From Kutzneria sp. CA-103260 (GTDB lineage Bacteria; Actinomycetota; Actinomycetes; Mycobacteriales; Pseudonocardiaceae), in the NCBI RefSeq assembly GCF_018263855.1, contig NZ_CP073318.1, positions 11,098,001 through 11,162,000 of the forward strand: 64,000 nt of DNA. Reading direction: 5' to 3'. Both the position numbers and the translations under genes were made by a program. This document shows, one piece after another, positions 4,146-36,790 of the stretch. The notes under the pieces are model-generated. The model worked only from the letters and a program-made list of their open reading frames with translations. It was not told the DNA's origin and ran no database searches. The first letter of the stretch is position 1; every line of letters starts with the position of its first letter.

Positions 4146-6962
4146 TTATTCACCGACGGCCTCCGGGGCGAGCGTGATGAGCTCCCGCAGCTCACTGGTG
4201 GACAGCTCGGTGAGCCAGCTTTCGCCGGCCCCGACCACCAACTGGGCCAGGGCGCGCTTCTCGGCGATGACGCGGTCGATGCGTTCCTCCAGGGTGCCCA
4301 GGCAGACGAACTTGCGGACCTGGACGTCGCGGCGCTGGCCGATGCGGAAGGCGCGGTCGGTGGCCTGGTCCTCGACGGCGGGGTTCCACCAGCGGTCCAG
4401 GTGCACGACGTGGTTGGCGGCGGTGAGATTGAGGCCGGTGCCGCCGGCCTTCAACGACACCAACAGGATCGAAGGGCCGTCGGGGGACTGGAAGCGGGCG
4501 ACGAGCTCGTCGCGGGCCCGCTGCGGGGTGCCACCGTGCAGGAAGGGGACCTCGATGCCGAACCGGGCGGAGAGGTGGCCGACCAGCATCCGTCCGAACG
4601 AGACGAACTGGGTGAAGCACAGCACCTTGTCGCCGTCGGCCAGCACCTGCTCGACGATCTCCTCCAGCCGGGCGACCTTGCCGGAGCGGCCGGCCACCCG
4701 GGAGCCGTCGCCGAGCAGTTGGGCGGGGTGGTTGCAGACCTGCTTGAGCTTGGTCATCGCGGCCAGCACGAGACCCTTGCGTTTGATGCCACGGCTTTCG
4801 CCGATCCGGCCGAGCATCTCGTCGACCACTGCCTGGTACAGCGTGGCCTGCTCGACAGTGAGGTTGCACAGCTGCCGAACCTCGAACTTCTCGGGCAGGT
4901 CGTCGATGACGGCACGGTCGGTTTTCAAGCGCCGCAACAGGAACGGCCCGGTGATGCGGCGGAGCCGGGCGGCGGCCTCCTGGTCGTTGAAACGCTCGAT
5001 GGGCACGGCGAACCGGGCCCGGAAGGTGTGCTCGGTGCGCAGCAGCCCGGGATTGAGGAAGTCCATCACCGACCACAGCTCGGCGAGCCGGTTCTCCACG
5101 GGAGTGCCGGTGAGCGCGACCCGGTGCCGGGCCGGCAGCGCCCGCACGGCCCGGGCCTGCACGGAAGCGCTGTTCTTGACGTACTGGGCCTCGTCGAGCA
5201 CGACCCGATCCCAGTCCACTTCGGACAGATTGGCCAGATCCCGGGCCACCACACCGTAAGTGGTGATCACGAGGTCGTGCCGGGCCAGCTCGGCGGCGGA
5301 CACCCGGTCCTCGCCGTGGTGGACGTGCACGGACAGCGTCGGCGCGAACCGCTCGGCCTCCCGCCGCCAATTGCCGACCACGGACATCGGGCACACCACC
5401 AGCGTCGGCCCGCGCCCGGCCGTGGACACGGCCAGCGCCAGCAGCTGCACGGTCTTGCCCAGCCCCATGTCGTCGGCCAGGCAGGCGCCGAGCCCGACCC
5501 GGTCCATCAGGCTCAGCCACGCCAGCCCACGCTCCTGGTACGGCCGCAGGGTCGCCTCGAACGCGGCCGGCGGCTCGACGGGTTCCAGCCGCTGGTCGGT
5601 ATGATCGGACAGCAGCCGTCCGAGCCAGCCCTCGGCGTGCACGTCGGTGACCGGCAGCGGCAGGTCGGCCTGCTCGGCCCACAGCACCTCGCCGGCGGTC
5701 ATGGTGCCCTGACCGGATCGGCCCAGGTAGGCGAGACCGGCGGCCAGGCGTTTGCCGTCCAGGTGCAGCCACCGGCCGCGCAGCCGCACCAGGGGGACTT
5801 TGGCGGCGGCCAGCGTCGCCATCTCCGCCTCGGTCAGCGGCTCGGATCCCAGTGCCAGCTGCCACTTGTAGTCGACGAGCAGGTCGAGGCCCATGCCCCG
5901 CTCGCGGCCGACGGTCCCGACCGACTGGGGGCTGCGCGCCGACAGCCGCAGGCCGAGATGCCCCCACTTGGCCGGCAGCAGCACCGCGAAGCCGGCCTGC
6001 GTGAGCAGCGGCGCGTCGAGCAGAAAGGCATGGGCGCCATCGACATCCGTGCGCAGCTGCGAAGGCTGGGACTGCCGCAGCAGCTGTTCCAGGCCACGAT
6101 GCAGCCGGCTGGCCCGGCCGAGGTCAGCCAGCAGCTGCGCCTGGGGATCGTCGATCCACCGGTACAGCACGTCGTCGTTGCCGTGCCAGAGCTGCCCGGC
6201 CGGCACCAGCACGCTCGGGTCGTCCACCGACTGCAGCAGCACTTCCAGCAGCCAGAAGTCGTCGTCCTCCAGTTCGGGCGAGCTGAGCCGGAAACACGTG
6301 CGCACCGGGCTGTCCGAGGCCAGGCTGGCGCACCACGCTTCCAGCGGCCGGGCCAGGCTGGGGAACGACGTCGGCTCACCGGTCAGCGCGGCCAGCCAGC
6401 GGTCCAGCTCCGCGCGCCCGCGACTGAGCCGCACGCCGCTGAGCCGTTGCCGCACCTCGTCGTCCACCAGTCGGTCCACAGTGGACGTCAGCACCGCGCC
6501 GGCGTCGGACTCCAGGGACTCGGCGCGGCAGGCCGGCGGCATCGCCCCGGCCAGTGCGACGAACCGGGCCGAGTCCACACCGGACAGCACGGCGCGCCAA
6601 CGGGACTGCTCGTCCGGCACGACCCGGCCCCGGGACACCAGGTCCTCGGCGAACGCGGCGACGTCGGCCAGGAACCGGGCCGAGTCGGTGAGTTCGTCGT
6701 CCGACAGCTCGGCCAGCGCCGCCGCGTCCACCACGCCGACCGGCACCCGCCACGGCCGCAGCCGCTGCCCGTTCAACGGATCGGTCGAGGCCAGCGGCCC
6801 GGATTCGGTGGAGGGCAAGGTGATCGTGCGGGTCTCGGGCTTGCCATGACCCGGCGTCACGGCGAACGGGTGGACGTCGCCGTCGGTCTCCCGGGGTAGG
6901 CCAGGATCCTCGGCCCACAGTGCCAGACGGCCGTCCGGCCCGCACAATCCGTGCAACAGCAA
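4146..6962 (-). CDS. SNF2-family DEAD/DEAH-box helicase
   Basis: A 938-residue Swi2/Snf2 ATPase. The N-terminal ~430 residues (LHGLCGPDGRLALWAED... onward) match the DUF3670 region found in bacterial SNF2 proteins. Helicase motifs follow: LADDMGLGKTVQ (Walker A, about 495), DEAQYVKN (motif II, a DEAH variant), ALTGTPVENR (motif III), LLVSLKAGGTGLNLTAA (motif V) and ATDRAFRIGQ (motif VI). All are intact. The start is TTG 6962, one nt after the MarR stop, and fits the usual N-terminus of the family. With the downstream SWIM gene it forms a two-gene module for ATP-driven DNA or nucleoprotein translocation. Co-direction with the pump and MarR genes suggests read-through. Confidence 0.9.
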   Translation of the reverse strand: MLLHGLCGPDGRLALWAEDPGLPRETDGDVHPFAVTPGHGKPETRTITLPSTESGPLASTDPLNGQRLRPWRVPVGVVDAAALAELSDDELTDSARFLADVAAFAEDLVSRGRVVPDEQSRWRAVLSGVDSARFVALAGAMPPACRAESLESDAGAVLTSTVDRLVDDEVRQRLSGVRLSRGRAELDRWLAALTGEPTSFPSLARPLEAWCASLASDSPVRTCFRLSSPELEDDDFWLLEVLLQSVDDPSVLVPAGQLWHGNDDVLYRWIDDPQAQLLADLGRASRLHRGLEQLLRQSQPSQLRTDVDGAHAFLLDAPLLTQAGFAVLLPAKWGHLGLRLSARSPQSVGTVGRERGMGLDLLVDYKWQLALGSEPLTEAEMATLAAAKVPLVRLRGRWLHLDGKRLAAGLAYLGRSGQGTMTAGEVLWAEQADLPLPVTDVHAEGWLGRLLSDHTDQRLEPVEPPAAFEATLRPYQERGLAWLSLMDRVGLGACLADDMGLGKTVQLLALAVSTAGRGPTLVVCPMSVVGNWRREAERFAPTLSVHVHHGEDRVSAAELARHDLVITTYGVVARDLANLSEVDWDRVVLDEAQYVKNSASVQARAVRALPARHRVALTGTPVENRLAELWSVMDFLNPGLLRTEHTFRARFAVPIERFNDQEAAARLRRITGPFLLRRLKTDRAVIDDLPEKFEVRQLCNLTVEQATLYQAVVDEMLGRIGESRGIKRKGLVLAAMTKLKQVCNHPAQLLGDGSRVAGRSGKVARLEEIVEQVLADGDKVLCFTQFVSFGRMLVGHLSARFGIEVPFLHGGTPQRARDELVARFQSPDGPSILLVSLKAGGTGLNLTAANHVVHLDRWWNPAVEDQATDRAFRIGQRRDVQVRKFVCLGTLEERIDRVIAEKRALAQLVVGAGESWLTELSTSELRELITLAPEAVGE

Positions 6963-8872: not shown

Positions 8873-9180
8873 ACTTGGGTGCGGGGGAACAGTGAGCCCG
8901 TTCACGGACCGGGCTGCTGCCCGCGTCAGAGGTGTCCTTCCGGAACGGTGACAGCGGGTGGCCGGACCGGTGCGCCGTGCGATCGGGCCCTTGGGCAGAC
9001 GTCGCCAAAGGGTCGGGACGCGCCCGGTGAGTCCGGTGTGGACGTCTTCGCGGATCCCTGCGCTGATCGGCTCAAGGGGGTTGCCTTCCCACACCCGGCC
9101 GGCTTCCCTTGAGCCTCTCGAAGGCGTTCCCTCGTCCGGGTACGGTGCGGGGGAAGCCGAGACGCGTCGGAGGGGTCCTG

Positions 9181-10461
9181 ATGTCGTTGGCCGGATACCC
9201 GGCGGGGGCGCCGAGTTTCCTGGGGCAGCTGCTGCGCCGGGGTGCGCCGGTGATCGCGGCTACCCCGAAGGACGTGCCGGACCTGGTGGTGGATCCGACG
9301 CCGGTGCCGGGCTGGCAGCGGATCTCGGCGATGTGCTCGGCCGAGAGCCAGTCGGAGCCGGACTCGCTGATGGTGCGCGCCTGCCGGTACGTGGTGCTGG
9401 TGCCGATGGTGTACCGGTTCGTGGCGCTGCCGGTGATGCTGCTGCCGGTGCTGGGCGCCGGCCACGTGGGCGTGGGGCTCGCGGTGGGGCTGCTGCTGTT
9501 CGTGCTGAACGCGGCGCTGATCGTGTGGGCGCTGCGGGTGCCGGGCGTGCTGAGCGAGTCCCTGCGGGGTCTGCTGATCACGGACGCGTGTGTGGCGATC
9601 GGGGCCAATCTCCTTGTGGGATATGTGGATCCGGGCGCGTCGGCGCTGACGTGGACGCATCTGGTCGGCTCGGTGGCACTGTGGACGGTCGCCTGGGGGA
9701 TCCCGTTCGGGCTGGCGCTCACGGTGCTGAGCGTGCCGCTGCAGGCGATCGTGTCGGTGAACGTGATCACGTTGGCCGCCAACACCTTGCTGTTGGTCGT
9801 GACAATGGTGACGTCGACCGGTGCGCTGCTGCTGGTCGGCCTCGGCACGAGACTGGCGCTGGGACTGGGGATCCGGCGTGGGCGGGAGGCCGAGGCGGCC
9901 AAGGTTCGGCGCGAGTTGCACGACACCGTGCTGCAGGCGTTGGAGGCCATGGCTCTGCCCGGTCCCGGCGACTCCGAGCAGGCCGCCGAACGGCTCGCGG
10001 AGCTGCGGGGGATCGCCCGGGCCCAGGCGATGGAGCTCCGGCGGGGGCTGGCCGGCGAGCCGGACCTGCCGCACCCGACGACCATCGGCGAGGATCTTGC
10101 CTTGCTGGCCACGGAAATGGCCCGTGAAGGGCTGCGCGCCCAGCTGGTGTTCGCCGAGGTGGACGACAGCACGATGCCCGAGGCGCGGCGGCGGGCCGTC
10201 CGCGACGCGGCGCGGGAAGCGTTGCGCAACACGATGAAGCACTCCGGCACCAACAAGGCCGTGCTGCGGATCGAGGAGCGGGACGGCGGCATCGCGGTGA
10301 TCGCCCGTGACCACGGCAGCGGCTTCAGCGACACGGACCGGCCGGCCGGCTTCGGCATCAGCGAGTCGATCACGGCCCGGTTGGCCGAGGTCGGCGGCCG
10401 CTCGCACGTCGACTCGCAGCCGGGGCGGGGAACCAGGGTGACGCTGTGGGTGCCCCGGTGA
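9181..10461 (+). CDS. NarL-family sensor histidine kinase of the T7SS locus
   Basis: About 426 residues from ATG 9181, which has GGAGGGG 6-12 nt upstream. The N-terminal ~80 residues are cytoplasmic without a recognised sensor fold. About five to six hydrophobic helices follow (residues about 70-245). VRRELHDTVLQALEAM (about 266-280) is the HisKA_3 dimerisation helix with the phosphorylated His. EALRNTMKHSG is the N box and DHGSGF the G1 box of the ATPase domain. No response regulator is adjacent; the only NarL regulator of this locus lies 17 kb away at 27923, on the far side of the secretion genes. The stop overlaps the following pseudo-mycosin start (GTGA), so the two are co-translated. Confidence 0.85.
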   Translation: MSLAGYPAGAPSFLGQLLRRGAPVIAATPKDVPDLVVDPTPVPGWQRISAMCSAESQSEPDSLMVRACRYVVLVPMVYRFVALPVMLLPVLGAGHVGVGLAVGLLLFVLNAALIVWALRVPGVLSESLRGLLITDACVAIGANLLVGYVDPGASALTWTHLVGSVALWTVAWGIPFGLALTVLSVPLQAIVSVNVITLAANTLLLVVTMVTSTGALLLVGLGTRLALGLGIRRGREAEAAKVRRELHDTVLQALEAMALPGPGDSEQAAERLAELRGIARAQAMELRRGLAGEPDLPHPTTIGEDLALLATEMAREGLRAQLVFAEVDDSTMPEARRRAVRDAAREALRNTMKHSGTNKAVLRIEERDGGIAVIARDHGSGFSDTDRPAGFGISESITARLAEVGGRSHVDSQPGRGTRVTLWVPR

Positions 10462-11612
10462 GGGCGGCCGCCGCGGCGCTGGTGGCGGTCGTGCTGGCGA
10501 TGATCGTGGACGTGCCGAGCGCACAGGCCGCCGGCTGCGCCACGTCGAAACAGGTCTACCAGGATGCGCCGTCGTGGGCTCAAAAACTGGTCGATCCGTC
10601 GCGGATCTGGTTGCTCACCAAGGGAACCGGGCAGACGGTGGCCATCGTCGGCGCAGGCGTCGACGGCGGCAACCCGCAGTTCGGGGCGGGCCAGGTGTTG
10701 GCGTCCAACGACTTGGTGCCGCGCCCCGGCGGTGTGGCCGACTGCGACGGCCGCGGCACGTTCGCCGCCGGCATCATCGGCGCGCAGCCGAACGACCAGA
10801 CGACGTTCGTCGGCATGGCCCCTGGTGTGAAGCTGCTGCCGCTGCGCTACACCGCTGGCGCGGGCGACACCAATCCCGGCGATCCCGGGCGCCTGGCCAC
10901 TGCGATCACGCAGGCCGTGCATGCCGGGGCCGGCACGATTCTCGTCGATGTTCCGACCACTGTGGACAGTCCGGCGCTGGATGACGCCGTGAGCGCGGCT
11001 CTGGCCGCCGGCTCGGTGATCGTGTCACCGGCGGTCGGCGCCCAGGCCGGCGTGGTCAGCTACCCCACCGCATTGCCGGGAGTGCTCAGTGTTGGCGCTG
11101 CCGACCAGAACGGCGCGGCCGTGCAGACGGAATCCGGCGACTACATCGACATCGCCGCGCCCGGGGCCGACCTCGTCAGCACCTCGGCCGGCGGGTACGG
11201 ACATTCCTGGCCCATCAAGGATCCAGCCGCGGCCGCCGCCTATGTCGCCGCGACTGCGGCGTTGCTGCGGTCGTATCAGCCGACCGCGACGCCCGCGCAG
11301 ATCGTGAACCGGCTGACGCTCACCGCGTCCCGGGCTGCCGGTGGTGGCCGGGATTCCCGGCTGGGTTGGGGAATCGTCGATGCCTACGCGGCCGTCACCT
11401 CGCAGCTGCCGCTGTCCACGCCCGGGCCGGATGCCTCGCCCGCCGCCGCGTCCGTGCCGAATCTGGTGCCGGCCGCCGCGCCGGCCCGGCCGCCGTTGAA
11501 CACCCTGGTCGGCGGCTTGGCGTTGGGTGGAGTCGGCTTGGCGGCGTTGGCCGGGTTGATCACCGTGACCATCCGGCGTGGCCGGGCAAGGGGCTGGAAG
11601 GTCAGGCTGTGA
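10458..11612 (+). CDS. Mycosin-like subtilase (MycP family) lacking every catalytic residue
   Basis: A 384-residue protein with the full mycosin layout: signal peptide (1-24), S8 fold, proline-rich linker and C-terminal membrane helix (about 348-372) ending in basic residues. The active-site blocks align with MycP but are mutated. Asp in 'VAVIDTGVD' is Gly65 (VAIVGAGVD). His in 'CDAHGT' is Arg99 (CDGRGT). The oxyanion Asn in 'AAGN' is Gly194. Ser in 'GTSFAA' is Ala257 (KDPAAAAAYVA). The structural disulphide cysteines (27 and 96) remain, as does the flanking core. The frame is uninterrupted, so this is a maintained pseudoenzyme rather than a broken gene. GTG 10458 overlaps the kinase stop by 4 nt; GTG 10446 is an alternative. 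Confidence 0.88.
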   Translation: MRAAAAALVAVVLAMIVDVPSAQAAGCATSKQVYQDAPSWAQKLVDPSRIWLLTKGTGQTVAIVGAGVDGGNPQFGAGQVLASNDLVPRPGGVADCDGRGTFAAGIIGAQPNDQTTFVGMAPGVKLLPLRYTAGAGDTNPGDPGRLATAITQAVHAGAGTILVDVPTTVDSPALDDAVSAALAAGSVIVSPAVGAQAGVVSYPTALPGVLSVGAADQNGAAVQTESGDYIDIAAPGADLVSTSAGGYGHSWPIKDPAAAAAYVAATAALLRSYQPTATPAQIVNRLTLTASRAAGGGRDSRLGWGIVDAYAAVTSQLPLSTPGPDASPAAASVPNLVPAAAPARPPLNTLVGGLALGGVGLAALAGLITVTIRRGRARGWKVRL

Positions 11613-11616
11613 CATG

Positions 11617-11767
11617 CCGCGCGTTCCGCGCGGGGCTCGGCCCCTTCGGGGGCCGATGCCTCGCCCTTGCCGGATTTCGCCCGCCGCATCCGGCTCGGGT
11701 GGTGGGGCGCGTTGGGTGGCGGCGGGCGAAATCCGGCAACCGGGCGAAGCATCGGCGGGGCCTCGCG
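11617..11767. repeat. Long-hairpin intergenic repeat, copy 1
   Basis: This element fills the space between the mycosin stop and the convergent DUF4231 stop. Its core is a perfect 19-bp inverted repeat (11669-11687 and 11719-11737) around a 31-nt loop rich in GGGTGGTGGGG. Pairing extends outward (GATGC-TCGCCC with GGGCGA-GCATC). It starts with CCGCGCGTTCCGCGCGGGG and ends near GGCCTCGCG. A second copy lies at 36644-36790. Its position between convergent gene ends suggests that it also terminates transcription. Confidence 0.75.
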
Positions 11768-11808
11768 TTCTCCCGTGCTGGCAGCCGAACGTCGCGTGAG
11801 CCGGGCGG

Positions 11809-12297
11809 TCAGCTGCCCTTCGGCTTCTGCGGCACCCCGCCGTAGGCCAGGCGGAGGGCGGCCCAGCCTTCGCGCTCCGTGGCGCAGATCTGCTCGACCG
11901 CCTCGACCAGGGCGACCGCCGCGCCGGGCTCGCCGTATCGGCCGTGGTGCACCGCGAACAGGGCGATCTCCCGCTCGATGGCGTAGCGCGCCCGCGTCCG
12001 GCTGGTCCAGTTCTCCTTGAAACCACCCAACGCCCGCAACCCGTTGACCAGCACCGCGAGTGAGCCGACAGCGGCGACGAGCCGCGCGTCGGGCGCGAAC
12101 ACCGCGAGCGCGGGAATGGTGGCGGTGACGACCAGGCTCGCCGCCTCGATGAGGGAATGCAGACGTCGCGCGGCCCGGGACGACTTCTGGTAGCGCTGCC
12201 ACTCGGCCAGTACGGACGGGGGAACGGCTTCGCCGCCGGCTCCCTTGGCCTCCAGCACCCACTGGCTCTTGGACACGGCACGCTGCTCTGAGGTCAT
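11809..12297 (-). CDS. DUF4231-type membrane protein
   Basis: About 162 residues from ATG 12297 (MTSEQRAVSKSQWVLEAKG). A helical N-terminus with the basic stretch RYQKSSRAARRLHSLIEAAS leads into two adjacent hydrophobic segments (about 55-72 and 76-92). A cytoplasmic helix with FKENWTSRTRARYAIERE and a C-terminal acidic/hydrophobic helix follow. The pattern W.RY....A......R matches DUF4231, a family of small two-helix membrane proteins of unknown function related to SLATT domains. SLATT proteins often accompany defence or signalling genes; nothing here ties it to the neighbouring secretion genes. Confidence 0.65.
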   Translation of the reverse strand: MTSEQRAVSKSQWVLEAKGAGGEAVPPSVLAEWQRYQKSSRAARRLHSLIEAASLVVTATIPALAVFAPDARLVAAVGSLAVLVNGLRALGGFKENWTSRTRARYAIEREIALFAVHHGRYGEPGAAVALVEAVEQICATEREGWAALRLAYGGVPQKPKGS

Positions 12298-12352
12298 GGG
12301 GGAAGATTCACCACCGCTCGCTGTCCAAGCAAGCCGCACCCCACGCCGTTAC

Positions 12353-12461: not shown

Positions 12462-13181
12462 TCAGGCGAGCAGGGACTGGTAGGAGGTGGCGGTCTGGGT
12501 GTCGCCCTGCTGGTAGTTCGCCGAACTCGACTGCACGCCGGTGGCCAGGGTGGAGGTCCGGTTGAGCTGGGCGGTGATCCGGGTGGCCAGCGATTCCACC
12601 AGCTTGGCGTGCGCCTCGGCGGCCTGCTGCGACTGCGGCAGGCCGCCGAAGGCGGTCGAGGCCGGTTCGGGGGATCCGACCTCGCCCTGCACGGACCGCA
12701 GCCGCTGGGCCTGGGCGGCCAACTCGGCGGCCACCTGGTCCAGGGCGCGCGGCGCGGCCCGGAACGAGGTGGGGGTGGCGCCACCGGTCGCCGGGCCGCT
12801 GGTGACCTGGCCGCTGGCGGTCCTCGCCTGGTTCAGATAACTCCGGTACGCCCCGTTGGTGTACGTCGACCAGGGCCGGAAATTGGTGCCCTGATGGGAA
12901 ATGGCGTACGCGTGCCGGGCGTTCACCGCCGGGTCGGCGTTGGCCTGGGCGTTGCGCAGCGCCTGCTCGGCGGCGGTGCCGTGACCGGGGTTGAGCGACC
13001 GGATCTGCCACAGCCCGACCGACGGGCCCCAGGTCCCGGTCTGGAGGTTCACGTCGCCGTGGATGCCGGTGTCGCCGTGGGACTCGGCCAGCGCGACGGC
13101 GACGGCGGTGTTCAGCGACTCGCCGCGGAAGCCGGCGTCGTAGGCGTGCTGGGCGATCTCGCGAGCGCTGATCGTGGGCAT
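12462..13181 (-). CDS. T7SS-associated lysozyme-like peptidoglycan hydrolase
   Basis: A 239-residue protein. The N-terminal ~115 residues are a lysozyme/transglycosylase-like fold: EIAQHAYDAGFRGESLNTAVAVALAESHGDT holds the catalytic-type Glu in 'AVALAESHG', and SVGLWQIRSL supplies the G-L-x-Q-I motif. There is no Sec signal peptide. The C-terminal ~100 residues are helical and WXG100/EspC-like, with YQQGD near residue 226, which fits the T7SS signal YxxxD/E. It is therefore probably exported by the neighbouring secretion system to open or remodel the wall. Its start is 1 nt from the stop of the upstream substrate gene. Confidence 0.75.
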   Translation of the reverse strand: MPTISAREIAQHAYDAGFRGESLNTAVAVALAESHGDTGIHGDVNLQTGTWGPSVGLWQIRSLNPGHGTAAEQALRNAQANADPAVNARHAYAISHQGTNFRPWSTYTNGAYRSYLNQARTASGQVTSGPATGGATPTSFRAAPRALDQVAAELAAQAQRLRSVQGEVGSPEPASTAFGGLPQSQQAAEAHAKLVESLATRITAQLNRTSTLATGVQSSSANYQQGDTQTATSYQSLLA

Positions 13182-13182
13182 G

Positions 13183-14442
13183 TCAGAGGTCCTCGCCGAT
13201 CACCGACGGCGCGACGGCCGACGATTCGCCCCACACGTCCTCGGTCTCCACCAGCCACGGCGGGATCCGCCGGCCGCCGCCCATGTCCCCGGCGCCGGCC
13301 CCGTTCATCGGCATCATGGGCATCATCGGGGCCATCGCCTTGCTGGCGGCGGTGTCCGCGACGGCCGCGCCGAGCGCGCCGCCGGCGATGTCGGCGGTCG
13401 GCCCGGAACCGCCGGACACCATGCTGGCGTCGGCCGTCGGCACGGATCCCGTTGCCCCGCCGCCGATTCCGCCGCCACCGCCGCCGATCCCGCCGGGAAG
13501 CTTGCCGCTGAACGATCCCGAACCGGCCGTGTCACCGAGCTTGGCGCCGGCCGGGGTCGTCGACTTCTCGTCCGTCTTGGGCTTCGCGAAGCCGGGCACC
13601 TTCGGCATGATCGAGCCGAACCTTCCGAACGCCGCCGCCGACGCGGCGGCCAGGCCGGCGGTGAACATGCCGCCGAACAACGGAGAACTGGTCTGCTGCT
13701 GGCCGGAAACCGGCGTGCCGCCGCCCACGGGCAGCGTGGTTGTGGTGCCGGTGGCCACGTTCACCCACGACGAGGCCCCGGTCGACGCGATCGGCACCGC
13801 CGCGGATCCGGTGTCGGACTGGGTGGTCGTCGGCGTGCTGCCGCTGGGCACCTGCTCGGCGTTGGGGGACGGCGGAATCGAGTCCTGCGCCGTCGTGTAG
13901 TCGCCGGCCAGCGCCTGCATCACCATCACGGCCTCGGCGTGCGCGGCGTTCGAGGCCGCCGCGGCCTGCTGCTGGTCGCGCACCTGCGCGACGGCGGCCG
14001 CCTGCTGTTGCTGCATCTGGGCCACCACCTGCGGCGGCGTGTCGGCCTGCACCTGGATCTGCGTGGTGGCAAGGCTCATCACCGACGGCGACACCTGCGG
14101 CACGTTCACCGGCTTGGGCATCTTGGCCCGCGCGGTGACCAGCGCCTCGCCGGCGTCGTGGGTCAGGTCGCGCATCGCGAACGCGGTGTCGGCGACCTTG
14201 CGGATGCCGTCGGCCAGGTCGCTGATCATCGACTGGTACTGCTGGGCCGCGCCGCCCTGCCACTTGTTCTGGAAGCCCGACAGCTGCGACTGGAGGTCGT
14301 TGGCCTTGTCGTGCAGGCCCTTGCCGGTCGTGTCCCAGGTGTCGGCCGCCTCGGTGACCGTGTCCGGGTCGCTGGCGAACAGCATCGTGTAGAGCTGCTC
14401 GTGGCTGTACTGCGCGAAGTTCGTGTGTGGGGTCATGTCCAT
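13183..14442 (-). CDS. Large WXG/PPE-like T7SS substrate
   Basis: A 419-residue protein. The first ~110 residues are a WXG100-type helical hairpin with the turn KWQGGAAQQY (WQG). A long Gln/Ala-rich helix follows (about 135-170, with runs of QQQ and AAA). The middle is a Thr/Ser/Gly-rich low-complexity region with a glycine-rich run and a Met-Met-Pro repeat (about 360-375). The C-terminus RRIPPWLVETEDVWGE...PSVIGEDL is a conserved tail of large T7SS substrates in Pseudonocardiaceae-type actinomycetes. ATG 14436 is an alternative start. The gene overlaps the preceding small gene by 10 nt and is tightly linked to the hydrolase. Confidence 0.7.
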   Translation of the reverse strand: MDMTPHTNFAQYSHEQLYTMLFASDPDTVTEAADTWDTTGKGLHDKANDLQSQLSGFQNKWQGGAAQQYQSMISDLADGIRKVADTAFAMRDLTHDAGEALVTARAKMPKPVNVPQVSPSVMSLATTQIQVQADTPPQVVAQMQQQQAAAVAQVRDQQQAAAASNAAHAEAVMVMQALAGDYTTAQDSIPPSPNAEQVPSGSTPTTTQSDTGSAAVPIASTGASSWVNVATGTTTTLPVGGGTPVSGQQQTSSPLFGGMFTAGLAAASAAAFGRFGSIMPKVPGFAKPKTDEKSTTPAGAKLGDTAGSGSFSGKLPGGIGGGGGGIGGGATGSVPTADASMVSGGSGPTADIAGGALGAAVADTAASKAMAPMMPMMPMNGAGAGDMGGGRRIPPWLVETEDVWGESSAVAPSVIGEDL

Positions 14443-14798
14443 GTCGAGCCCCCCTGGGCCGAGTCACCCTGGGCATCCGCGTAACCGGTCGCCACCTGCA
14501 TGCCGCTGGCGAGGTCGGTGTCAAGCTGCTCGTAGCCGGTGGCCACGGTCTTGGTCACGTTCTCGGCGAACTCGATCGCCTGGCGCACCTGGTCGAGCAG
14601 GCCGTGCATCTCGGCCACCGCCGCCTTGGTGCGCGTCGCCAGCCCGAGCGCCTCGCCGAACTCACCCAGCAGCACCGGCGCCCCGGCCAGCTGCGTGAGC
14701 TGGTCCATCGGGCCGCCCATGCCGTCCAGCTGGGTCTGCAGCTCGCGGGCGAAGTCCGTCAACGACTCCAGGTGGACGGAGAACGACTGGTCCCACAT
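14433..14798 (-). CDS. Small helical T7SS substrate candidate
   Basis: A 121-residue all-helical protein without signal peptide or membrane segment. Two long amphipathic helices are separated at LTQLAGAPVLLGEF. It has no WXG, but YEQLD at about residue 97 fits the YxxxD export signal after the second helix. Size and position in the leftward T7SS operon suggest an EsxA/EspC-like substrate or partner for the large WXG/PPE-like protein, whose gene it overlaps. Confidence 0.6.
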   Translation of the reverse strand: MWDQSFSVHLESLTDFARELQTQLDGMGGPMDQLTQLAGAPVLLGEFGEALGLATRTKAAVAEMHGLLDQVRQAIEFAENVTKTVATGYEQLDTDLASGMQVATGYADAQGDSAQGGSTWT

Positions 14799-14872: not shown

Positions 14873-15175
14873 TCACGCGAAGTACTGCGTGTTCTTGTTC
14901 TCCAGCGCCAGCTGGAGGTCGTGCGCCTCCATCACCTTGCCGCCGAACTGGCCGACAATGGTGGCGATGTCGTTGGTGGCGTTGCGCAGCCGCGTCTCGG
15001 CCTGCTCCGCCGCCTGGCCCGCCGCGCTCCCCGAGGCGTACCAGGTGGCCTTGATCGGCTGGAGCGAGGTGTGCAGCTGGTCCAGGTACTCCTGCAACGC
15101 CTTCGCCTTGGCGGCCAGGGTCTGCGAGCTGACCTGGAGCGCCGCGAAGTCGACGCTGATCTGGTCGGCGGTCAT
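14873..15175 (-). CDS. WXG100-family protein (EsxA/EsxB-like)
   Basis: A 100-residue protein, exactly the family size. Two helices (about 10-38 and 50-90) are separated by IKATWYASGSAAG at the hairpin turn, a WxxSG variant of WXG. There is no YxxxD at the C-terminus, so it is more like the EsxA partner that travels with a signal-bearing heterodimer mate. The adjacent WXG100-like gene, 16 nt upstream, is the likely mate. Confidence 0.85.
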   Translation of the reverse strand: MTADQISVDFAALQVSSQTLAAKAKALQEYLDQLHTSLQPIKATWYASGSAAGQAAEQAETRLRNATNDIATIVGQFGGKVMEAHDLQLALENKNTQYFA

Positions 15176-15191: not shown

Positions 15192-15551
15192 TCAGGCCAG
15201 CGATCCGCCGGTCAGGCGGCCGAAGACCGCGCCACCGGCGTCGACGTTGTTGGACAGGCTGGTCAGGCTCTGGGCGACCGTGCTGTCACCGCTGCCGTAG
15301 TTGTGGAAGCTCTGGTTCACCAGGTTCGACATGGTGTCCAGCTCGGAGCTCGCCGTCCGCATCTTGTCCTGGAGCTGGGTGTGCAGCTGCCAGAACGCGG
15401 TGGCCTGGCTGCCCTGGTAGTGGCTCAGCGCCGAGACCAGGTCGTTCTCCAGGTCCGACATGGTCTTCTTGGCGTTCGCCGCGCACTCCTCGAAACCCTG
15501 GACCGCTCGCGTCATCGCCGCTGCGTCGGCCTTGAAGCCGGGGCTGCTCAC
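15192..15551 (-). CDS. WXG100-family protein, probable heterodimer partner
   Basis: A 119-residue protein from GTG 15551, with the strong ribosome site GGAGG at 15559-15564 on the complement, 7 nt away. It is helical, with SHYQGSQATAFW at the turn: YQG replaces WQG. After helix 2 comes YGSGD, fitting YxxxD, the T7SS export signal usually borne by one member of the pair. Upstream ATG 15593 is less likely because it lacks a ribosome site. It is the first gene of the leftward substrate operon, preceded by two copies of the motif GGTARTWGTGCCGT. Confidence 0.82.
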   Translation of the reverse strand: MSSPGFKADAAAMTRAVQGFEECAANAKKTMSDLENDLVSALSHYQGSQATAFWQLHTQLQDKMRTASSELDTMSNLVNQSFHNYGSGDSTVAQSLTSLSNNVDAGGAVFGRLTGGSLA

Positions 15552-15618
15552 GGGCCACCTCCTCTCGCTCGACTGCTCATCCGTCACCGACAACGCTAGA
15601 AACCTTGAGGCTTAGAGC

Positions 15619-15684: not shown

Positions 15685-18600
15685 CTACTCCGACATCGCC
15701 ACCTGCACAAGGGAAGTCCGGGAACGCCGGCGGACCAACTGGCCACGGCCGGGCGGCTGGGAGGTGGGTTTGGCGTCGCCCAACAAGATCCCTTCCTCCG
15801 GCGAGCCGGACAGGACCAGGCCGGGTGAGCCGAGTTCACGGACGCGTTGCACGAGGGGTTCGAACAACGCGCGGGAGGCGCCGCCGCTGGCCCTTGCGAT
15901 GATCAGGTGAAGGCCGACGTCCCGAGCCTGGGGCAGGTAGTCCATCAGCGGGGACAGGGGATTGCGGCCGGGATTGGCCACGAGCTCGTAGTCGTCGACG
16001 ATGACGAACAGCTCCGGGCCGGTCCACCAGGTGCGTTCCCGTAGCTGCTCGACGGTCACCTCGGGCCCGGGAAGGCGGGTCTGCATGGCGGCGGCGGCCT
16101 CGGCCACCAGGCCGGTGACGGCGTTCTCGGCGCCGGCGTAGCCCAGCAGGTGCGGACCGGTGACGGCGTCGAGCAGGCCCCGCCGGTAATCCACGACGAT
16201 GATGGCGGCCTCGTTGGCGGTGTACCGGGCGGTGATGCCGTTGGCGATCACCCGCAGCAGGTTGGTCTTGCCCGACTCGACGTCGCCGAAGGCCAGGAAG
16301 TGCGGCTCGGCGGCGAAGTCCAGGTGCACGGGCTTGAGGTCGGCCTCGGCCAGCCCGAGGGGCACGATCTTGCCTTCGCTGCCGGAGACCTCGGCCAGCG
16401 GGACCTCGCGCGGCAGCAGGCGGACCGGCGGGGCGGGCGGACGGGTCCAGGCCTTGGTGACGGCCTCGACGAAGGAGGTGGTGCCGGCGGCCAGGGAGCC
16501 AGGACGCTGATCGCCGTCCACGCGGGGCAGTGCGGTGAGGAAGTGCAGCTTGTCCTTGGTGAGACCGCGACCGGGAGCGCCGGCCGGCACGTTCTGCGCG
16601 GCCCGGCGGTCGATCGACGAGTCGGCGGGGTCGCCCAGCCGCAGCTCGAACCGGGTGCCGGCGGCGTCGCGCAGCTGCGGCCGCACGCCCATCCACCAGT
16701 TGGCCGAGACGACCACGTGGATGCCGAAGCCCAGGCCCCGGGCGGCCAGCCCGATCACGGCCTGCTCCAACGCTTCCTGCTCCTCGCGCAGTGTCGCCCA
16801 GCCGTCCACGACCAGGAACACGTCGCCGAACTCGCGGCCGTCGGCGCTCTCGGTGAACTCGGCCCGCCGTTGCCGGAACGTGGTGATCGAGTCGATTCCG
16901 TTGGCGGCGAAGAAGAGTTCCCGCTCGGCCAGCAGCGTCGTGACCTCGGCGACGACCCGGCGGCAGCGCTCGGGCTCGCGGCGGGTGGCGTAGCCGGAGG
17001 TGTGCGGCAGGCCGGAGATCGGCCGCAGTGCGCCACCACCCATGTCCAGCACGAAGAACTGGGCCTCGGCTGGCGTGTGGGTCAAGGCCAGCACGCCGAT
17101 CAGCGTGCGCAGCAACGTGCTCTTGCCGCTCTGCGGCGCGCCGACGACGATGGCGTTGCCGGCGGCCCCGGACAGGTCGGCCCACAGCAGATCCCGTCGC
17201 TGCTCGAACGGCTTGTCCACGATGGCGATCGGCACGATCAGCCGGCCGTTGCCGCCCCAGCCGACCGGGCACAGCCCACGCTCCGGGTCCACGCCCAGCG
17301 GCGGCATCAGCTGGTCCAGCGTGGGCGGCTCGCCCAGCGGCGGCAGCCAGATCTGATGCGCGTCAGGTCCCTTGCCCTGCAACCGCTCCACGATCGTGCC
17401 CATGATCGTCTCACCGGTGCTGGGCTGCTCCGGCGTCTGCGGCGCGGTGATCACTTCAGGAATCGGCGTCGGGGCAAGGGTGAACGGCAGCACCGCCCGG
17501 ACCTGGGCCGGGCCGGCCTCGACGACGCCGCGAGGCGGCAGGTCGCCGGACACGAACGCGGCCTTGAACCGGATCAGCGTCTCGGTGTCCACGCGCAGGT
17601 AACCCGAACCCGGCACCGGCGGCAGCTGATGTGCGTCGGCGACGCCGAGCACCGACCGGCTCTCCGAGGCGGAGAACGTGCGCAGGCCGACCCGGTAGGA
17701 CAGGTGCGAGTCGAGGCCGCGCAGCCGACCTTCCTCAAGCCGCTGCGAGGCAAGGAGAAGGTGGATGCCGAGGCTGCGGCCGAGCCGGCCGATCATGACG
17801 AACAGGTCGATGAACTCGGGCTGGCTGCTCAGCAGCTCGGAGAACTCGTCGATGATCACCAGCAGCGACGGCAGCGGATCCAGGGTCGCGCCGTCCATCC
17901 GGGCCCGCTCGTAGTCACGCACGGACGCGTAGTTGCCGGCCGCCTTCAGCAACTCCTGCCGGCGGACCAGCTCGCCCTTGATCGCGTCGCCCATGCGGTC
18001 GACCATCGACAGGTCCTCGGCCAGGTTGGTGATCACCGCGCAGGTGTGCGGCAGGCCGGTCATGCCGGCGAAGGTCGCGCCGCCCTTGAAGTCGATCAGG
18101 GCCAGGTTCAGCTGCTCCGAGGAGTGCGTGGCGGCCAGGCCGATGACCAGCGTGCGCAGCAGCTCCGACTTGCCGGAGCCGGTCGCGCCGATCACCAGGC
18201 CGTGCGGACCCATGCCGCCCTCGGCCGACTCCTTGAGGTCCAGGTCGACCGGCCGACCGTCGGGGTCGACGCCGATCGGCAGCCGCAGCCGCTCCCGGGC
18301 GGTGCGGCGGCGCCACGTGACATCCGTGTCGAGGTCACGGGGATCGCCGATGCCGAGCAGGCCCGGCAGCCCGAAGTTGGCCGCCATCGGCGATTCCGCG
18401 ACCACCGGCGAGCCCTGGTAGAGCGGGGCGAGCTGGCGGGCCAGGGCCTCGGCCGAGGCGTGGTCGAACCGGTCCGGGCGGCCCAACAGGGCGATCCGCC
18501 GGTCGCTGTCCTCGCCGACGACCATGCCCAGCCGCTCGCCGGCCACGTGCAGGAACAGGTCGTGGTCCGGGGTCTCGTCCGGGATGCCGCCGCTGACGTC

Positions 18601-19599
18601 GATCACCGTGACGGCCTGGCGGCCGCCGGCCGCGGTCAGCCGGCTGTCGTCGGCGGTGCGGCCGCCGTCCAGCACGACCACGATGTGCTGGTACTCCGGG
18701 GAAGTCGTCTTGCTGAAGGCCGGCCGCTCGCCCAGGTCGGCCCCGAGCAGGTCGGCCAGCGCGCCCACCCGGTCGGCCACCAGCCGGGTCGGGCCGGTCG
18801 GATCGCCGGTCGTGCCCTGGTTGTGCGGCAACCACTTCGCCCACTCCCAGTCCCGGATCCGGTCCGCCGGCACGCAGAACGCGATACGCAGATCGGTCGG
18901 GGAGTGGAAGGCCGCCAGCTGGGCCAGCACGGCGCGGACCAGGTCCAGCACCTGCCGCCGGTCGCCGGTCACGGTGATCCGCGCGAACGAGCGCAGCGAG
19001 ATCGCCACCGGTAGGTCCTGCACCGTGGCGTAGGCACGGATGAAGTGTCGCAATGCCGTGGAGGAGACCGGATCCAGGTCCTCCAGCGGCACGGTCTGCG
19101 GCGCACGCAGCGGCGTGGCCAGGCGCTGTGGGCCGGCCCCGACGCGGACCTTGCCGAACGCCGGGTCCATCCGCCGCCGCTCCCACAGCCGGCCGCGCTC
19201 CACGAACGCCCACAGGTCGACCGGCTCCGGCTGGGCCGCGGTCAGGGCGATCCGCTGCCGCTCCGCCACTTCCCGCACCTGGCCGCGCAGGCCGGTCAGG
19301 TAGCGCTGGTAGTCCCGCCGCTCCTCGTTGATCTGCGCCTTCTTGGCCGCCCCGCCGCGGGCCAGCGACATGATCACCATGCCGGCCATGGACACCGCGA
19401 ACAGCGCGCCGAAGACGTAGGTCATCACGCCGCCGCTGCGTCCGATGTAGACGAACGACATGGCTCCCATGCCGAGCATCATCGGCAGGAAGAACAGCAG
19501 CTGCACCGCGCCCTGGTTGGAGCCCTTGGGCAGCATCGGCGGGGACTGCAACACGATCTCGCCGGTCGGTGGCTCCAGCCTGGTCTGTACCGCACTCAC
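15685..19599 (-). CDS. eccC: EccC, FtsK/SpoIIIE-type ATPase of type VII secretion (EccCa-EccCb fused)
   Basis: About 1304 residues from GTG 19599 (VSAVQTRLEPPTGEIVLQSPP, the usual EccC N-terminus). Two membrane helices lie at about 35-52 and 62-80. Three ATPase domains follow, with Walker A motifs GATGSGKSE (about 471), GAPQSGKST (about 821) and GDVESGKTN (about 1106). Walker B strands are LLVIIDEF, FLVVDGW and LFVIVDDY. All three P-loops keep GKS/GKT. EccC binds substrate signals and drives export across the inner membrane. Fusion of both halves in one chain is as in ESX-4 and non-mycobacterial systems. ATG 19668 is a less likely start because it lies in the palindrome at 19668-19722. Confidence 0.95.
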   Translation of the reverse strand: MSAVQTRLEPPTGEIVLQSPPMLPKGSNQGAVQLLFFLPMMLGMGAMSFVYIGRSGGVMTYVFGALFAVSMAGMVIMSLARGGAAKKAQINEERRDYQRYLTGLRGQVREVAERQRIALTAAQPEPVDLWAFVERGRLWERRRMDPAFGKVRVGAGPQRLATPLRAPQTVPLEDLDPVSSTALRHFIRAYATVQDLPVAISLRSFARITVTGDRRQVLDLVRAVLAQLAAFHSPTDLRIAFCVPADRIRDWEWAKWLPHNQGTTGDPTGPTRLVADRVGALADLLGADLGERPAFSKTTSPEYQHIVVVLDGGRTADDSRLTAAGGRQAVTVIDVSGGIPDETPDHDLFLHVAGERLGMVVGEDSDRRIALLGRPDRFDHASAEALARQLAPLYQGSPVVAESPMAANFGLPGLLGIGDPRDLDTDVTWRRRTARERLRLPIGVDPDGRPVDLDLKESAEGGMGPHGLVIGATGSGKSELLRTLVIGLAATHSSEQLNLALIDFKGGATFAGMTGLPHTCAVITNLAEDLSMVDRMGDAIKGELVRRQELLKAAGNYASVRDYERARMDGATLDPLPSLLVIIDEFSELLSSQPEFIDLFVMIGRLGRSLGIHLLLASQRLEEGRLRGLDSHLSYRVGLRTFSASESRSVLGVADAHQLPPVPGSGYLRVDTETLIRFKAAFVSGDLPPRGVVEAGPAQVRAVLPFTLAPTPIPEVITAPQTPEQPSTGETIMGTIVERLQGKGPDAHQIWLPPLGEPPTLDQLMPPLGVDPERGLCPVGWGGNGRLIVPIAIVDKPFEQRRDLLWADLSGAAGNAIVVGAPQSGKSTLLRTLIGVLALTHTPAEAQFFVLDMGGGALRPISGLPHTSGYATRREPERCRRVVAEVTTLLAERELFFAANGIDSITTFRQRRAEFTESADGREFGDVFLVVDGWATLREEQEALEQAVIGLAARGLGFGIHVVVSANWWMGVRPQLRDAAGTRFELRLGDPADSSIDRRAAQNVPAGAPGRGLTKDKLHFLTALPRVDGDQRPGSLAAGTTSFVEAVTKAWTRPPAPPVRLLPREVPLAEVSGSEGKIVPLGLAEADLKPVHLDFAAEPHFLAFGDVESGKTNLLRVIANGITARYTANEAAIIVVDYRRGLLDAVTGPHLLGYAGAENAVTGLVAEAAAAMQTRLPGPEVTVEQLRERTWWTGPELFVIVDDYELVANPGRNPLSPLMDYLPQARDVGLHLIIARASGGASRALFEPLVQRVRELGSPGLVLSGSPEEGILLGDAKPTSQPPGRGQLVRRRSRTSLVQVAMSE

Positions 19600-19633
19600 C
19601 ACGGCATTCTGCCCAGAGAAGGGTGATCGGTTT

Positions 19634-19655
19634 GTGGGTACTTTTGCCGTCACCC
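19634..19655 (+). promoter_or_regulatory. T7SS promoter motif, plus-strand copy 1
   Basis: GTGGGTACTTTTGCCGTCACCC matches the minus-strand copy at 15661-15640 in 19 of 22 positions. It lies between the eccC start and the long palindrome, facing the rightward substrate operon. Confidence 0.55.
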
Positions 19656-19667
19656 TGCCCCACTTCA

Positions 19668-19722
19668 TGCAGGGAAGGACGCCTTACCCGCGTTGAACGA
19701 GGGTAAGGCGTCCTTCCCTGCA
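19668..19722. terminator. 22-bp perfect hairpin between divergent T7SS operons
   Basis: TGCAGGGAAGGACGCCTTACCC (first 20 of 22: positions 19668-19689) pairs perfectly with 19701-19722 around an 11-nt loop. Its strength resembles a bidirectional terminator. However, it sits between divergently transcribed genes, where a terminator is unexpected. It separates the two plus-strand copies of the T7SS promoter motif. Confidence 0.7.
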
Positions 19723-19827: not shown

Positions 19828-20568
19828 ATGGACACCGGTCAGTACGAGGTGCGCCCGGAGGCCATGCGGTCCGCGGTCGGCAACATCGGCGGCATCATCA
19901 TGCAGACCGTCAACGCCGTGCTCGACCTGGAGAAGCTGGTGTTGGCGCCGACCTCGTTCGCCATGATCGGCGACGCGGTGGCCTCGGGCAACGTGGCGAT
20001 GCAGGCGCAGCAGGTGGCCGCGATGCAGTCGCTGCTCAAGGGCCTGCAGGCGGTCAACGATCTGATCAAGAAGAGCGCGGACGCCTACGACGAGGCGGAC
20101 CGGGCGGTGGCGCAGGGATTCGGCGGCAGCCCGTCGGCCGGCACGGCCAACACGGCCAGCCTGTGGTCGAGCCCGGCGGCCGGTCTGGTGGCGGCGCAGG
20201 CGTTCAACGACAGCGTCGGCGGCGCGGGCGATCCGCACTCGGTGGCCAACGTGCTGGACTACCTGGGCCACGCGGGTCTGGGCCACGACTCGTCGGCCGG
20301 CCAGTTCGCCCACGACAGCACGGGTTTCGCCAACTGGCTCGACGCCAGCCCCGACCACCAGGCCCAGGTCGGCGTGATCGGCGTGTACTCGGGTGTGGCC
20401 CGAAACCTCGGCGACATCCCCGGCGGCGTGCACGCGGGCGACGTGGTGGTGGTCAACTCCACCATCGGCGTCGCCGGCACCGGCGGCCAGCTCTACAACC
20501 ACGGCCTGCTCACCCCGGACTACGGCGGCCTGGCGATGGTCCGCGTCTACCGTCCGATGCCGGCCTGA
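19828..20568 (+). CDS. EspC/WXG-like T7SS substrate with C-terminal domain
   Basis: A 246-residue protein starting at ATG 19828 behind GGGAGGGAG. Residues 1-98 form a helical hairpin like EspC/DUF2580 proteins: EVRPEAMRSAVGNIGGIIMQTV and a second helix ending SADAYDEADRAVAQGF, where YDEAD is a textbook YxxxD signal. The C-terminal ~130 residues (SVANVLDYLGHAGLGHDSS... GDVVVVNSTIGVAGTGGQLYNHG...) look like a compact globular domain that I do not recognise. It has two GxGxD/H-type turns and ends YGGLAMVRVYRPMPA. It heads the rightward operon. Confidence 0.65.
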   Translation: MDTGQYEVRPEAMRSAVGNIGGIIMQTVNAVLDLEKLVLAPTSFAMIGDAVASGNVAMQAQQVAAMQSLLKGLQAVNDLIKKSADAYDEADRAVAQGFGGSPSAGTANTASLWSSPAAGLVAAQAFNDSVGGAGDPHSVANVLDYLGHAGLGHDSSAGQFAHDSTGFANWLDASPDHQAQVGVIGVYSGVARNLGDIPGGVHAGDVVVVNSTIGVAGTGGQLYNHGLLTPDYGGLAMVRVYRPMPA

Positions 20569-20582
20569 CAGGAGAGACCACC

Positions 20583-21629
20583 GTGCTCACGTTCCCGAAC
20601 TCCAGCGCGATGGACGCGACGGCGAGCTCCGGCGGGCCGATCACGTTCCTGCCGCGCATCGTCACCGGCCAGCCCGAGCAGATCGCCGCGCACGTGACCC
20701 AGGTGCTGGCCAAGGCCAAGCAGTTCGTCACGCTGATGGACGACTTCGCCAAGGCCGAGAAGCAGCTGTCCCAGGTGTGGTCGGGCGCGGCGTCGGAGAC
20801 GGCGCTGAAGAAGATCACCGACTCGCTGCAGTCCTTCGAGAAGATCATCAAGGTGGTGCAGGAGGGCGCGCAGCTGCTGGGCGTGGCCAGCACCCTGGTG
20901 AAGTCCGCGCAGACCGCCTACACCTCGGTGGTCTCGGCGGTGAACCCGACGGTCGCGGCGCTGATGTCGAACCCGTGGACGCACGCGGCGGCGGTCGCGC
21001 TGTCCACCGCCACCTCGGCTTCGCTGCGCGGTTTCATCGAGGCGATCGGCGGCCTGCTCAAGACTCTGGGCCTGACCAATCTCGGCGCGGAGCTGACCAC
21101 GCTGGCGTCGATCATCCAGGAGCTGGAGAAGCTCTTCGGCAATAACAAGTCGGCCTCGGCCTCGACGCCGTCCGGGACCACGCCGTCGACCACGACCGTG
21201 ACCAGCAACCCGGTGACCGCGCCGGTGACGCCGCCGCCGGTGGCCTCGGCCAGCGGCCAGCAGGTCACCTCGACGCCGACCGTGCCCACGGTGAGCACGC
21301 CGACGACGACCGCGCCGACCGGCACGCTGCCGACGACTTCCACTGTGTCGCAGCAGAATCCGTACAACTACACGCCGCCCGCGCTCGGCGGGGCCACCCC
21401 GGGCACGGCGGACACGTGGATCCCGGTCGACCCGCCGGCCGGGTCCACACCCGCCACCCCCGCGCCCAGCACGCCCGTGGACACCGGCGTGATCAAGGTG
21501 ACCACCACGATCGGCGCCGAGTCGACCACCGTGGAGATCCCGACCGGTCACAACGCCCAGCTGGACGTGGACATCCCGGTCAACGGCCAGCACGTCACCG
21601 AGCACATCTCGGTCACGGGCGCGTCGTGA
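20583..21629 (+). CDS. WXG-domain T7SS substrate with Thr/Pro-rich stalk
   Basis: A 348-residue protein from GTG 20583 with AGGAGAG upstream. The N-terminal half is helical, with the WXG turn LSQVWSGAASETALKKI (about 58-75). A second helical hairpin continues to about 190 (ELTTLASIIQELEKLFGNN). A ~130-residue Ser/Thr/Pro-rich region follows, resembling a wall-spanning linker. A small C-terminal beta domain ends the protein: GVIKVTTTIGAESTTVEIPTGHNAQLDVDIPVNGQHVTEHISV. It probably displays this domain at the surface. Its stop overlaps the next start (GTGA). Confidence 0.65.
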   Translation: MLTFPNSSAMDATASSGGPITFLPRIVTGQPEQIAAHVTQVLAKAKQFVTLMDDFAKAEKQLSQVWSGAASETALKKITDSLQSFEKIIKVVQEGAQLLGVASTLVKSAQTAYTSVVSAVNPTVAALMSNPWTHAAAVALSTATSASLRGFIEAIGGLLKTLGLTNLGAELTTLASIIQELEKLFGNNKSASASTPSGTTPSTTTVTSNPVTAPVTPPPVASASGQQVTSTPTVPTVSTPTTTAPTGTLPTTSTVSQQNPYNYTPPALGGATPGTADTWIPVDPPAGSTPATPAPSTPVDTGVIKVTTTIGAESTTVEIPTGHNAQLDVDIPVNGQHVTEHISVTGAS

Positions 21630-23539: not shown

Positions 23540-23872
23540 ATGGACCTGGAGACCGGTGTCGACGTGCAGGGCCTGCTGGACCAGGTGCGGGCCCAGCAGG
23601 AGCAGGTGCAGCGCATCCAGCGTGGGGTCGAGACCCTGGAGGTCAAGGGCTACTCCCGTGGCAACGAGGTGACGGTGTCGCTGCGCGGCAGCGGGCGGTT
23701 CACCGACATCAGTATCGACCCGGAGTCGATGCGCCGCTACAACGCCCGCGACCTCGGGGACATGGTGCTGGAGGCGGTCAACGACGGGCTGCGCAAGATG
23801 GCCGAGGCCACCAGCGCCCGGTTCGCGCCGGTGATCGAGGCGGCCGGCCGGATGGAGCGGTTCACGTCATGA
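23540..23872 (+). CDS. YbaB/EbfC-family DNA-binding protein
   Basis: A 110-residue protein of YbaB/EbfC type. An N-terminal coiled-coil helix (GLLDQVRAQQEQVQRIQRGVETLEV) precedes the beta sheet VKGYSRGNEVTVSLRGSGRFTDISIDPE and a C-terminal helix LGDMVLEAVNDGLRKMAE. YbaB proteins bind DNA as dimers and organise the nucleoid. The usual copy sits by recR/dnaX; this one is embedded in the T7SS operon and overlaps eccD (ATGA). It is presumably a specialised regulator of this locus. Confidence 0.8.
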   Translation: MDLETGVDVQGLLDQVRAQQEQVQRIQRGVETLEVKGYSRGNEVTVSLRGSGRFTDISIDPESMRRYNARDLGDMVLEAVNDGLRKMAEATSARFAPVIEAAGRMERFTS

Positions 23873-26379: not shown

Positions 26380-26541
26380 GGCGCTGCGACGCTCCTTGCC
26401 CTTGTGTCCGGCAAAAGTGCCCGAAAATCCCGGAACTTGTCCTGGGCGACCCCCGCAGCATAGGTATGCTCGGGTCGCCCCGTACAGAGGGATTTCTTAC
26501 CGGGCAAGGTGTTTCTAGGGGGCACGGGCTGGGGGCACGTG

Positions 26542-27909: not shown

Positions 27910-27922
27910 GGGGAGTGGGTCG

Positions 27923-36643: not shown

Positions 36644-36790
36644 CCGCGCGTTCCGCGCGGGGCGAGGCCGCTCGTGACCGGTGCCTTCCCTGGCCGGATT
36701 TAGCCCGCCGCATCCGGCTCGGGTGGTGGGGCGCGTCGGGTGGCGGCGGCCGAAATCCGGCGACAGTCCAGGCACCGGCGCGGCCTCGCG
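36644..36790. repeat. Long-hairpin intergenic repeat, copy 2
   Basis: This second copy of the 11617-11767 element lies between the GH3 stop and the sigma-factor start. The core inverted repeat is 36693-36711 / 36743-36761 with a 31-nt loop nearly identical to copy 1. Outer arms differ from copy 1 but pair with each other: GCGAGGCCG (36662-36670) with CGGCCTCGC (36781-36789), and CCGGTGCCT (36678-36686) with AGGCACCGG (36770-36778). It begins with the same CCGCGCGTTCCGCGCGGGG. Confidence 0.75.

Follow-up and report, generated by a model that had tools for sequence, protein, structure and literature searches.

An ESX lineage of Kutzneria and its relatives carries a mycosin without catalytic residues

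What is a protease subunit for once the residues with which it would cut have gone? The question is raised by a 64,000-nt stretch of Kutzneria sp. CA-103260 DNA (contig NZ_CP073318.1, positions 11,098,001 to 11,162,000; hereafter the window), which lies at 11.098-11.162 Mb of a single-contig 11.6-Mb genome and carries an ESX type VII secretion locus. At window positions 10458-11612 (+ strand) this locus encodes a 384-aa homologue of the mycosins (MycP). According to the available excerpts of PMC5082899, MycP1 and MycP5 stabilise the ESX membrane complex, which is destroyed by their deletion, while active-site mutants of both still secrete; the dispensability of mycosin protease activity is thus known from engineered mutants. 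No report of naturally dead mycosins was found in searches of open-access literature, a coverage outside which most subscription journals fall, or in the available portions of PMC3482391, PMC1779556, PMC4791881 and PMC5156307.

Loss of the catalytic residues

The mycosin frame is open over all 384 codons. Alignment with the MycP1 crystal sequences placed Gly65 at the catalytic Asp (VIDTG in MycP1, IVGAG here), Arg99 at the His (DCDAHGT, DCDGRGT), Gly194 at the oxyanion Asn and Ala257 at the Ser (NGTSFS, KDPAAA), exactly the four replacements proposed in a first-pass annotation of the window. No alignment register restoring Asp-His-Ser was found for this protein, whose sole His residues are at 155 and 249. 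The triad and oxyanion Asn that would make a mycosin a protease are accordingly absent. H249 is conserved in 34 of the 36 members of the clade described below and is read as ancestral, because seven of twelve active mycosins have a His at roughly the same place, in addition to the catalytic His.

Descent from mycosins is nevertheless apparent. The protein matched the TIGR03921 model for type VII secretion mycosins at 7.1e-66 and 222.7 bits, under the curated cut-off of 278.75 needed for equivalog status, and Pfam Peptidase_S8 at 6.2e-18 and 65.6 bits, over the cut-off of 21.8. Hydrophobic segments at residues 1-19 and 347-365, and a helix at 354-377 in the structure model, are consistent with an export signal and a membrane anchor, assigned on hydropathy and not by a dedicated signal-peptide predictor. 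Two cysteines, C27 near the N terminus and C96 in the His motif, are kept in 36/36 clade members and form a putative disulphide. The open frame, the cysteines and both terminal segments had been noted in the first pass, as had an intact fold, and a predicted model built on 29 sequences does match the MycP1 and MycP3 structures, with MycP1 ranking first in Foldseek. An earlier five-row prediction was poor (predicted local distance difference test score 44.7) and was set aside. The gene is encoded with those for EccB, EccC, EccD and WXG100 proteins (the WXG100 matches being under curated cut-offs), and EccE is also nearby. A search with P0001 against viral contigs found no relative. Since the protein is mycosin-derived but fails the defining catalytic test, it is named here a mycosin-derived pseudoprotease, a term that also reflects its predicted protease fold and the purifying selection reported below.

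Co-inheritance with one ESX type and further losses

The gene was present in six of seven Kutzneria genomes, the relatives including Kutzneria sp. 744, K. buriramensis and K. viridogrisea, with five orthologues 64-87% identical to the window mycosin; no dead mycosin was found in the seventh (G005; 4.7 Mb in 210 contigs, rated 93% complete). Asp, His and Asn are missing from all six copies. A profile of these six sequences, searched against 249 genomes of the family Pseudonocardiaceae, gave 36 places at or above 303 bits among the matches listed, followed by a gap to 236 bits; they represent 36 genomes from nine genera. Asp, His and Asn are replaced in every one of the 36, which excludes chance, and Ser in 23. 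The Asp position holds Gly (31) or Ala (5), the His position Arg (35) or Gln (1), the Asn position Gly (27) or Ala (9), and the Ser position Ala (15), Ser (13), Gly (5), Thr, Ile or Leu (1 each). Two generic subtilases (L076 and L077) were left out of all counts. Twelve other family mycosins aligned alongside keep all four residues, and against these the 36 form one clade (support 100/100, and 100/99 without the catalytic columns). In a class-wide sample of 394 genomes no further clade member was found at 1e-60, the only other matches being intact mycosins in G050 and at 5.6 Mb in the Kutzneria sp. CA-103260 genome itself. No random or frameshifted orthologues were seen, 35 of 36 having no stop inside the match.

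Selection was estimated as the ratio of nonsynonymous to synonymous substitution rates (dN/dS) by the Nei-Gojobori method, using ten pairs from five Kutzneria species, with K. viridogrisea pairs computed separately. The dead mycosin gave values of 0.13-0.20 (mean 0.165), a sign of purifying selection, and its active paralogue from the 9.46-Mb ESX locus of the same species gave 0.35-0.60 (mean 0.475); the latter carries all four motifs in all six Kutzneria species. Similar constraint on the dead mycosin was found in g16 (0.04-0.19, nine of 16 copies), g25 (0.10-0.15, four copies) and g17 (0.12-0.19, four of five).

The window EccC was then used as a marker of the secretion system. Among the places listed, 35 family genomes have an EccC at least 64% identical to it, after which identity drops to 54%, and all 35 also have the dead mycosin (lists compared by eye); no listed member of this ESX type is therefore without it. 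The remaining dead-mycosin genome, G017, is 74% complete; its mycosin lies on a 4.8-kb contig, and the listed places include no EccC from it. The inactive mycosin is thus a mark of an ESX lineage, co-inherited with one ESX type.

The first-pass annotation, which was right to call this a naturally dead mycosin within an ESX locus, understated the loss, which is not recent and not the only one of its kind, catalytic residues having gone from other mycosins as well. Intact mycosins exist in the same genome, where L001 and L020 (at the place of L002) retain the complete set of four residues and each lie beside another ESX locus, answering the question of a second active mycosin. A fourth ESX locus (C1:572000-592000, L115, near 0.58 Mb) has EccB, EccC and EccD and no mycosin match within 100 kb. 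Asp-His-Asn-Ser is kept at 37 of 73 further mycosin places in the family and not at the other 36, a fraction that gives no prevalence, the places having been hand-picked and lying mostly under the family cut-off. One intact row is a repeat (L189 is the same locus as L021), leaving 36 new intact rows and 120 distinct genes in the 121-row alignment. Eight of the 36 broken rows contain stops within an over-long stretch taken for alignment; in the search listings the match at each of these eight places is free of stops. The broken copies either keep Asp and His with Ser replaced by Glu and Asn by Val (8), replace His by Arg together with Ser by Glu or Gly (10), replace Asp by Ser or Gly, His by assorted residues and Ser by Glu, Gln or Ala (12), or show other patterns (6). 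The routes to inactivity differ, since Asp and His survive in some groups and Ser in part of the window clade. On a quick tree of 98 rows, built with the catalytic columns left out, at least four intact/broken changes were required, three of them forced by well-supported branches (Shimodaira-Hasegawa-like approximate likelihood ratio test only, with many open forks). In 12 fetched regions around broken mycosins, EccC was encoded in 11 and EccB and EccD also in nine. Many broken mycosins lie among L181-L253, in other genomes of the family, and further ones at L267, L282 and L283, in another family.

Beyond the family most mycosins sampled were intact, in two sets that were not random and together cover 79 distinct places, L254 repeating the place of L162. 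The first held 50 class-wide places (30 of them best scorers, and 16 with X from stops in the stretch, most presumably beyond the gene end), of which 47 were intact, one of these (L147) from the same family. As to the exceptions, the Asp position is not covered in L157, and L168 has Asp at the oxyanion Asn, within a larger gene with the Asp motif and Ser; L167/L172, truncated where its contig ends, shows Gly in place of Ser and Asp in place of Asn. Asp for Asn in the oxyanion motif (AAGD) was also seen in L173, L178 and L179, from another family of the same order. The second set, 30 lower-scoring places in other families, held 26 intact copies and four broken ones, all in family f19: one without Asn only, two keeping Asp and His but not Ser, and one without all four. 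Among 30 loci listed as matches of one search, L140 alone had a stop inside the match.

Possible roles of the pseudoprotease

Published work on MycP1 and MycP5 offers a plausible model for a structural part. In the ESX-5 complex, three MycP5 molecules cap the EccB5 chamber with their active sites turned inward to the lumen (PMC8131196, available excerpts). By analogy, the window protein is probably a membrane-anchored ESX subunit that has kept its fold and anchors, cannot cut, and serves as a trimeric lid on the EccB chamber. It would hold three EccB dimers together as a closed chamber in the periplasm, through which secreted proteins would pass without being cut by it. A part as lid alone appears most likely because of the predicted fold, the anchor, the partners, the strong selection and the missing catalytic residues. 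Stabilisation of the membrane complex, lack of enzyme activity and absence of substrate processing by this protein would all follow from such a part. A lineage with a dead protease in every sampled member, more constrained than its active paralogue, together with the further losses, gives evolutionary support for a structural role and suggests that the mycosin subunit is likely there to hold the secretion machine of these soil actinomycetes together rather than to cut. ESX complexes of this kind would allow the lid to be studied apart from proteolysis.

Several observations weigh against so simple a part. Of the 29 sequences behind the structure model, 25 are other subtilases, which could bias the prediction towards an intact fold. 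The K. viridogrisea pairs are less constrained (dN/dS 0.32-0.42). One clade member, L045, from a 74% complete genome, carries an in-frame TGA, as does one EccC of the set (G170). At least one further mycosin over the cut-off is present in 34 of the 35 other dead-clade genomes, and for that reason mixed trimers or cutting in trans are possible. Finally, unchanging residues near the dead site hint at a kept, non-catalytic role beyond scaffolding, a hint that comes from the unequal fate of its two sides. On the clade tree the Ser position changes at least eight times and the Asn position four times, while the His position, with Arg in 35 of 36 members, changes only once; D97, P166, E225 and A261, which vary among active mycosins (12 compared), are invariant across the clade. 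The Ser side is drifting, and a new state has become fixed on the Asp/His side.

These residues are what would be expected if the protein, besides holding the complex, used its former cleft to bind, without cutting, a partner subunit, a peptide or the tail of a substrate, as a gate or checkpoint. The lumen-facing active sites of MycP5 (PMC8131196, in the same excerpts) would suit such a gate. We consider it unlikely, since the invariance could reflect packing only, the location of the residues in the cleft is putative, and a bulky residue in the MycP1 groove left M. marinum secretion running (PMC5082899, available excerpts). A wider proposal is offered tentatively: the change from mycosin to pseudoprotease may have happened repeatedly among actinomycetes, and the site in the window lineage may have been rebuilt round a near-invariant Arg (R99, with D97, P166, E225 and A261) so as to bind or gate within the secretion chamber without cutting, which would make cutting dispensable and chamber closure and gating essential.

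Another conceivable role for the dead mycosin is that of an accessory sensor, telling the adjacent membrane kinase and the LuxR-type regulator what state the ESX complex is in. The first-pass annotation had proposed that mycosin and kinase are coupled by their gene overlap. The sensor histidine kinase is encoded directly upstream (9109-10461, +; the true start may lie downstream of 9109). Its N-terminal half consists mostly of membrane segments, about 6-7 being predicted to span the membrane, and it carries what we take to be the phosphoacceptor (ELHDT) and ATPase motifs. The genes share a 4-nt start/stop overlap, GTGA (10458-10461, +), and this part of the proposal stood: the letters are present in all six Kutzneria orthologues, and the kinase match stops there in the five that were mapped (the window's own, G003, G004, G001 and G006). 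The coupling itself fared less well across the clade. In a region-by-region comparison of 16 related genomes, the kinase adjoins the mycosin in ten, though in four of these only its C-terminal part matched; it also does so in G017. The regulator directly adjoins the mycosin, with no kinase between, in G111, G060, G022 and G133; the G034 region has only a short, weak kinase match that is not adjacent, and no kinase was found in the G059 region. When 14 genomes were searched, no kinase was found at 1e-25 in G111, G060, G022 and G034, and in the four g16 genomes tested (G059, G182, G222 and G213) it lies elsewhere. Because the dead mycosin persists where the kinase is undetected or elsewhere, it does not depend on an adjacent kinase, and the kinase was rejected as an obligatory partner. 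We regard the accessory sensor as improbable. In g17, three of five genomes (L054, L055 and L056) have no kinase between regulator and mycosin and none elsewhere at 1e-25, the regulator being left without this neighbour.

An unconventional protease with a rebuilt catalytic centre is more improbable still. In its favour, Ser at position 257 is kept in 13 of the 36 and H249 in 34. The retained Ser, however, stands in proteins that lack Asp, His and the oxyanion Asn; seven of the twelve active mycosins also have a His near 249; and the only Ser or Cys residues conserved in at least 34 of 36 members, S171, C27 and C96, do not lie near the site. A gene decaying after the need for a mycosin was lost, as the loss of four catalytic residues might suggest, is scarcely credible given a match free of stops in 35 of 36 members, its presence in nine genera and a dN/dS far below 1 and below that of the active paralogue.

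The ESX locus and known systems

The other parts of the locus lie downstream of the mycosin gene. On the - strand these are genes for a DUF4231 protein (11809-12339, domain match), an SLT_3 lysozyme-like protein (12462-13181, in 14 of 16 related regions), a PPE/WXG100-like candidate secreted protein with a Gly-rich C-terminal part (13183-14442, in all 16), a small conserved locus protein matching no NCBIfam family (14433-14798), two WXG100-like proteins (14873-15175 and 15192-15593, under curated cut-offs) and the EccC ATPase (15685-19668), in which three Walker A motifs are present. Neither the PPE-like protein (best E 0.42) nor the SLT_3 protein (best E 0.064) had a meaningful relative of known structure. 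Two open reading frames with weak WXG100-like matches follow on the + strand (20163-21629 and 21416-23065, their true starts probably internal), then family matches to YbaB/EbfC (23540-23872, +) and EccD (23869-25230, +), EccE (25288-26379, -; over the Pfam cut-off, and 72 bits against an NCBIfam cut-off of 108), EccB (26509-27909, +, containing GIPGAP) and the LuxR-type response regulator (27923-28570, +, family match). The EccE-EccB-regulator block (25288-28570) forms the right end of the locus in the window and in G059 (g16). In G127 and some other genomes its place is on the left of the paired kinase and mycosin genes; the block has moved, leaving kinase and mycosin together in Kutzneria.

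Upstream of the locus, a 938-aa frame (4146-6962, -) has a strong coding signal and finds matches in two more regions from Kutzneria genomes, L066 and L074. Directly behind the mycosin gene lies a long hairpin repeat (11630-11790, fold z-score -5.5), with another at 36657-36790. A search that listed 63 matches, and in which 40 of 138 candidates were scored, puts its long copies in the genome at 41 or more. It looks like a dispersed palindromic element.

Among known systems, MycP1 of ESX-1 (PDB 4kpg, 4kb5, 4m1z) and MycP3 of ESX-3 (4kg7) are the first Foldseek and best mycosin sequence matches, and share with the window mycosin the fold, the N-terminal cysteine, the DCDxxGT cysteine and a place in an ESX locus. 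MycP1 differs in having an Asp-His-Ser triad with which it cleaves EspB (PMC5082899 and PMC5156307, available excerpts), whereas the window mycosin retains none of Asp, His, Asn and Ser at these positions. MycP5 of ESX-5 (PDB 7np7, 7npr, 7nps) is closest in proposed work, as the lid of the EccB chamber (PMC8131196, as excerpted), and differs in keeping its activity features and being inactivated only by engineering (PMC5082899, likewise). At 585 residues, with a loop-5 insertion, it is also longer than the 384-aa window mycosin. CspA and CspC of Clostridioides difficile, presumably subtilases too, are soluble spore germination proteins and not ESX subunits. Their likeness to the window mycosin is that they are termed pseudoproteases, in their case with a signalling role in germination (PMC12880746, available excerpts).
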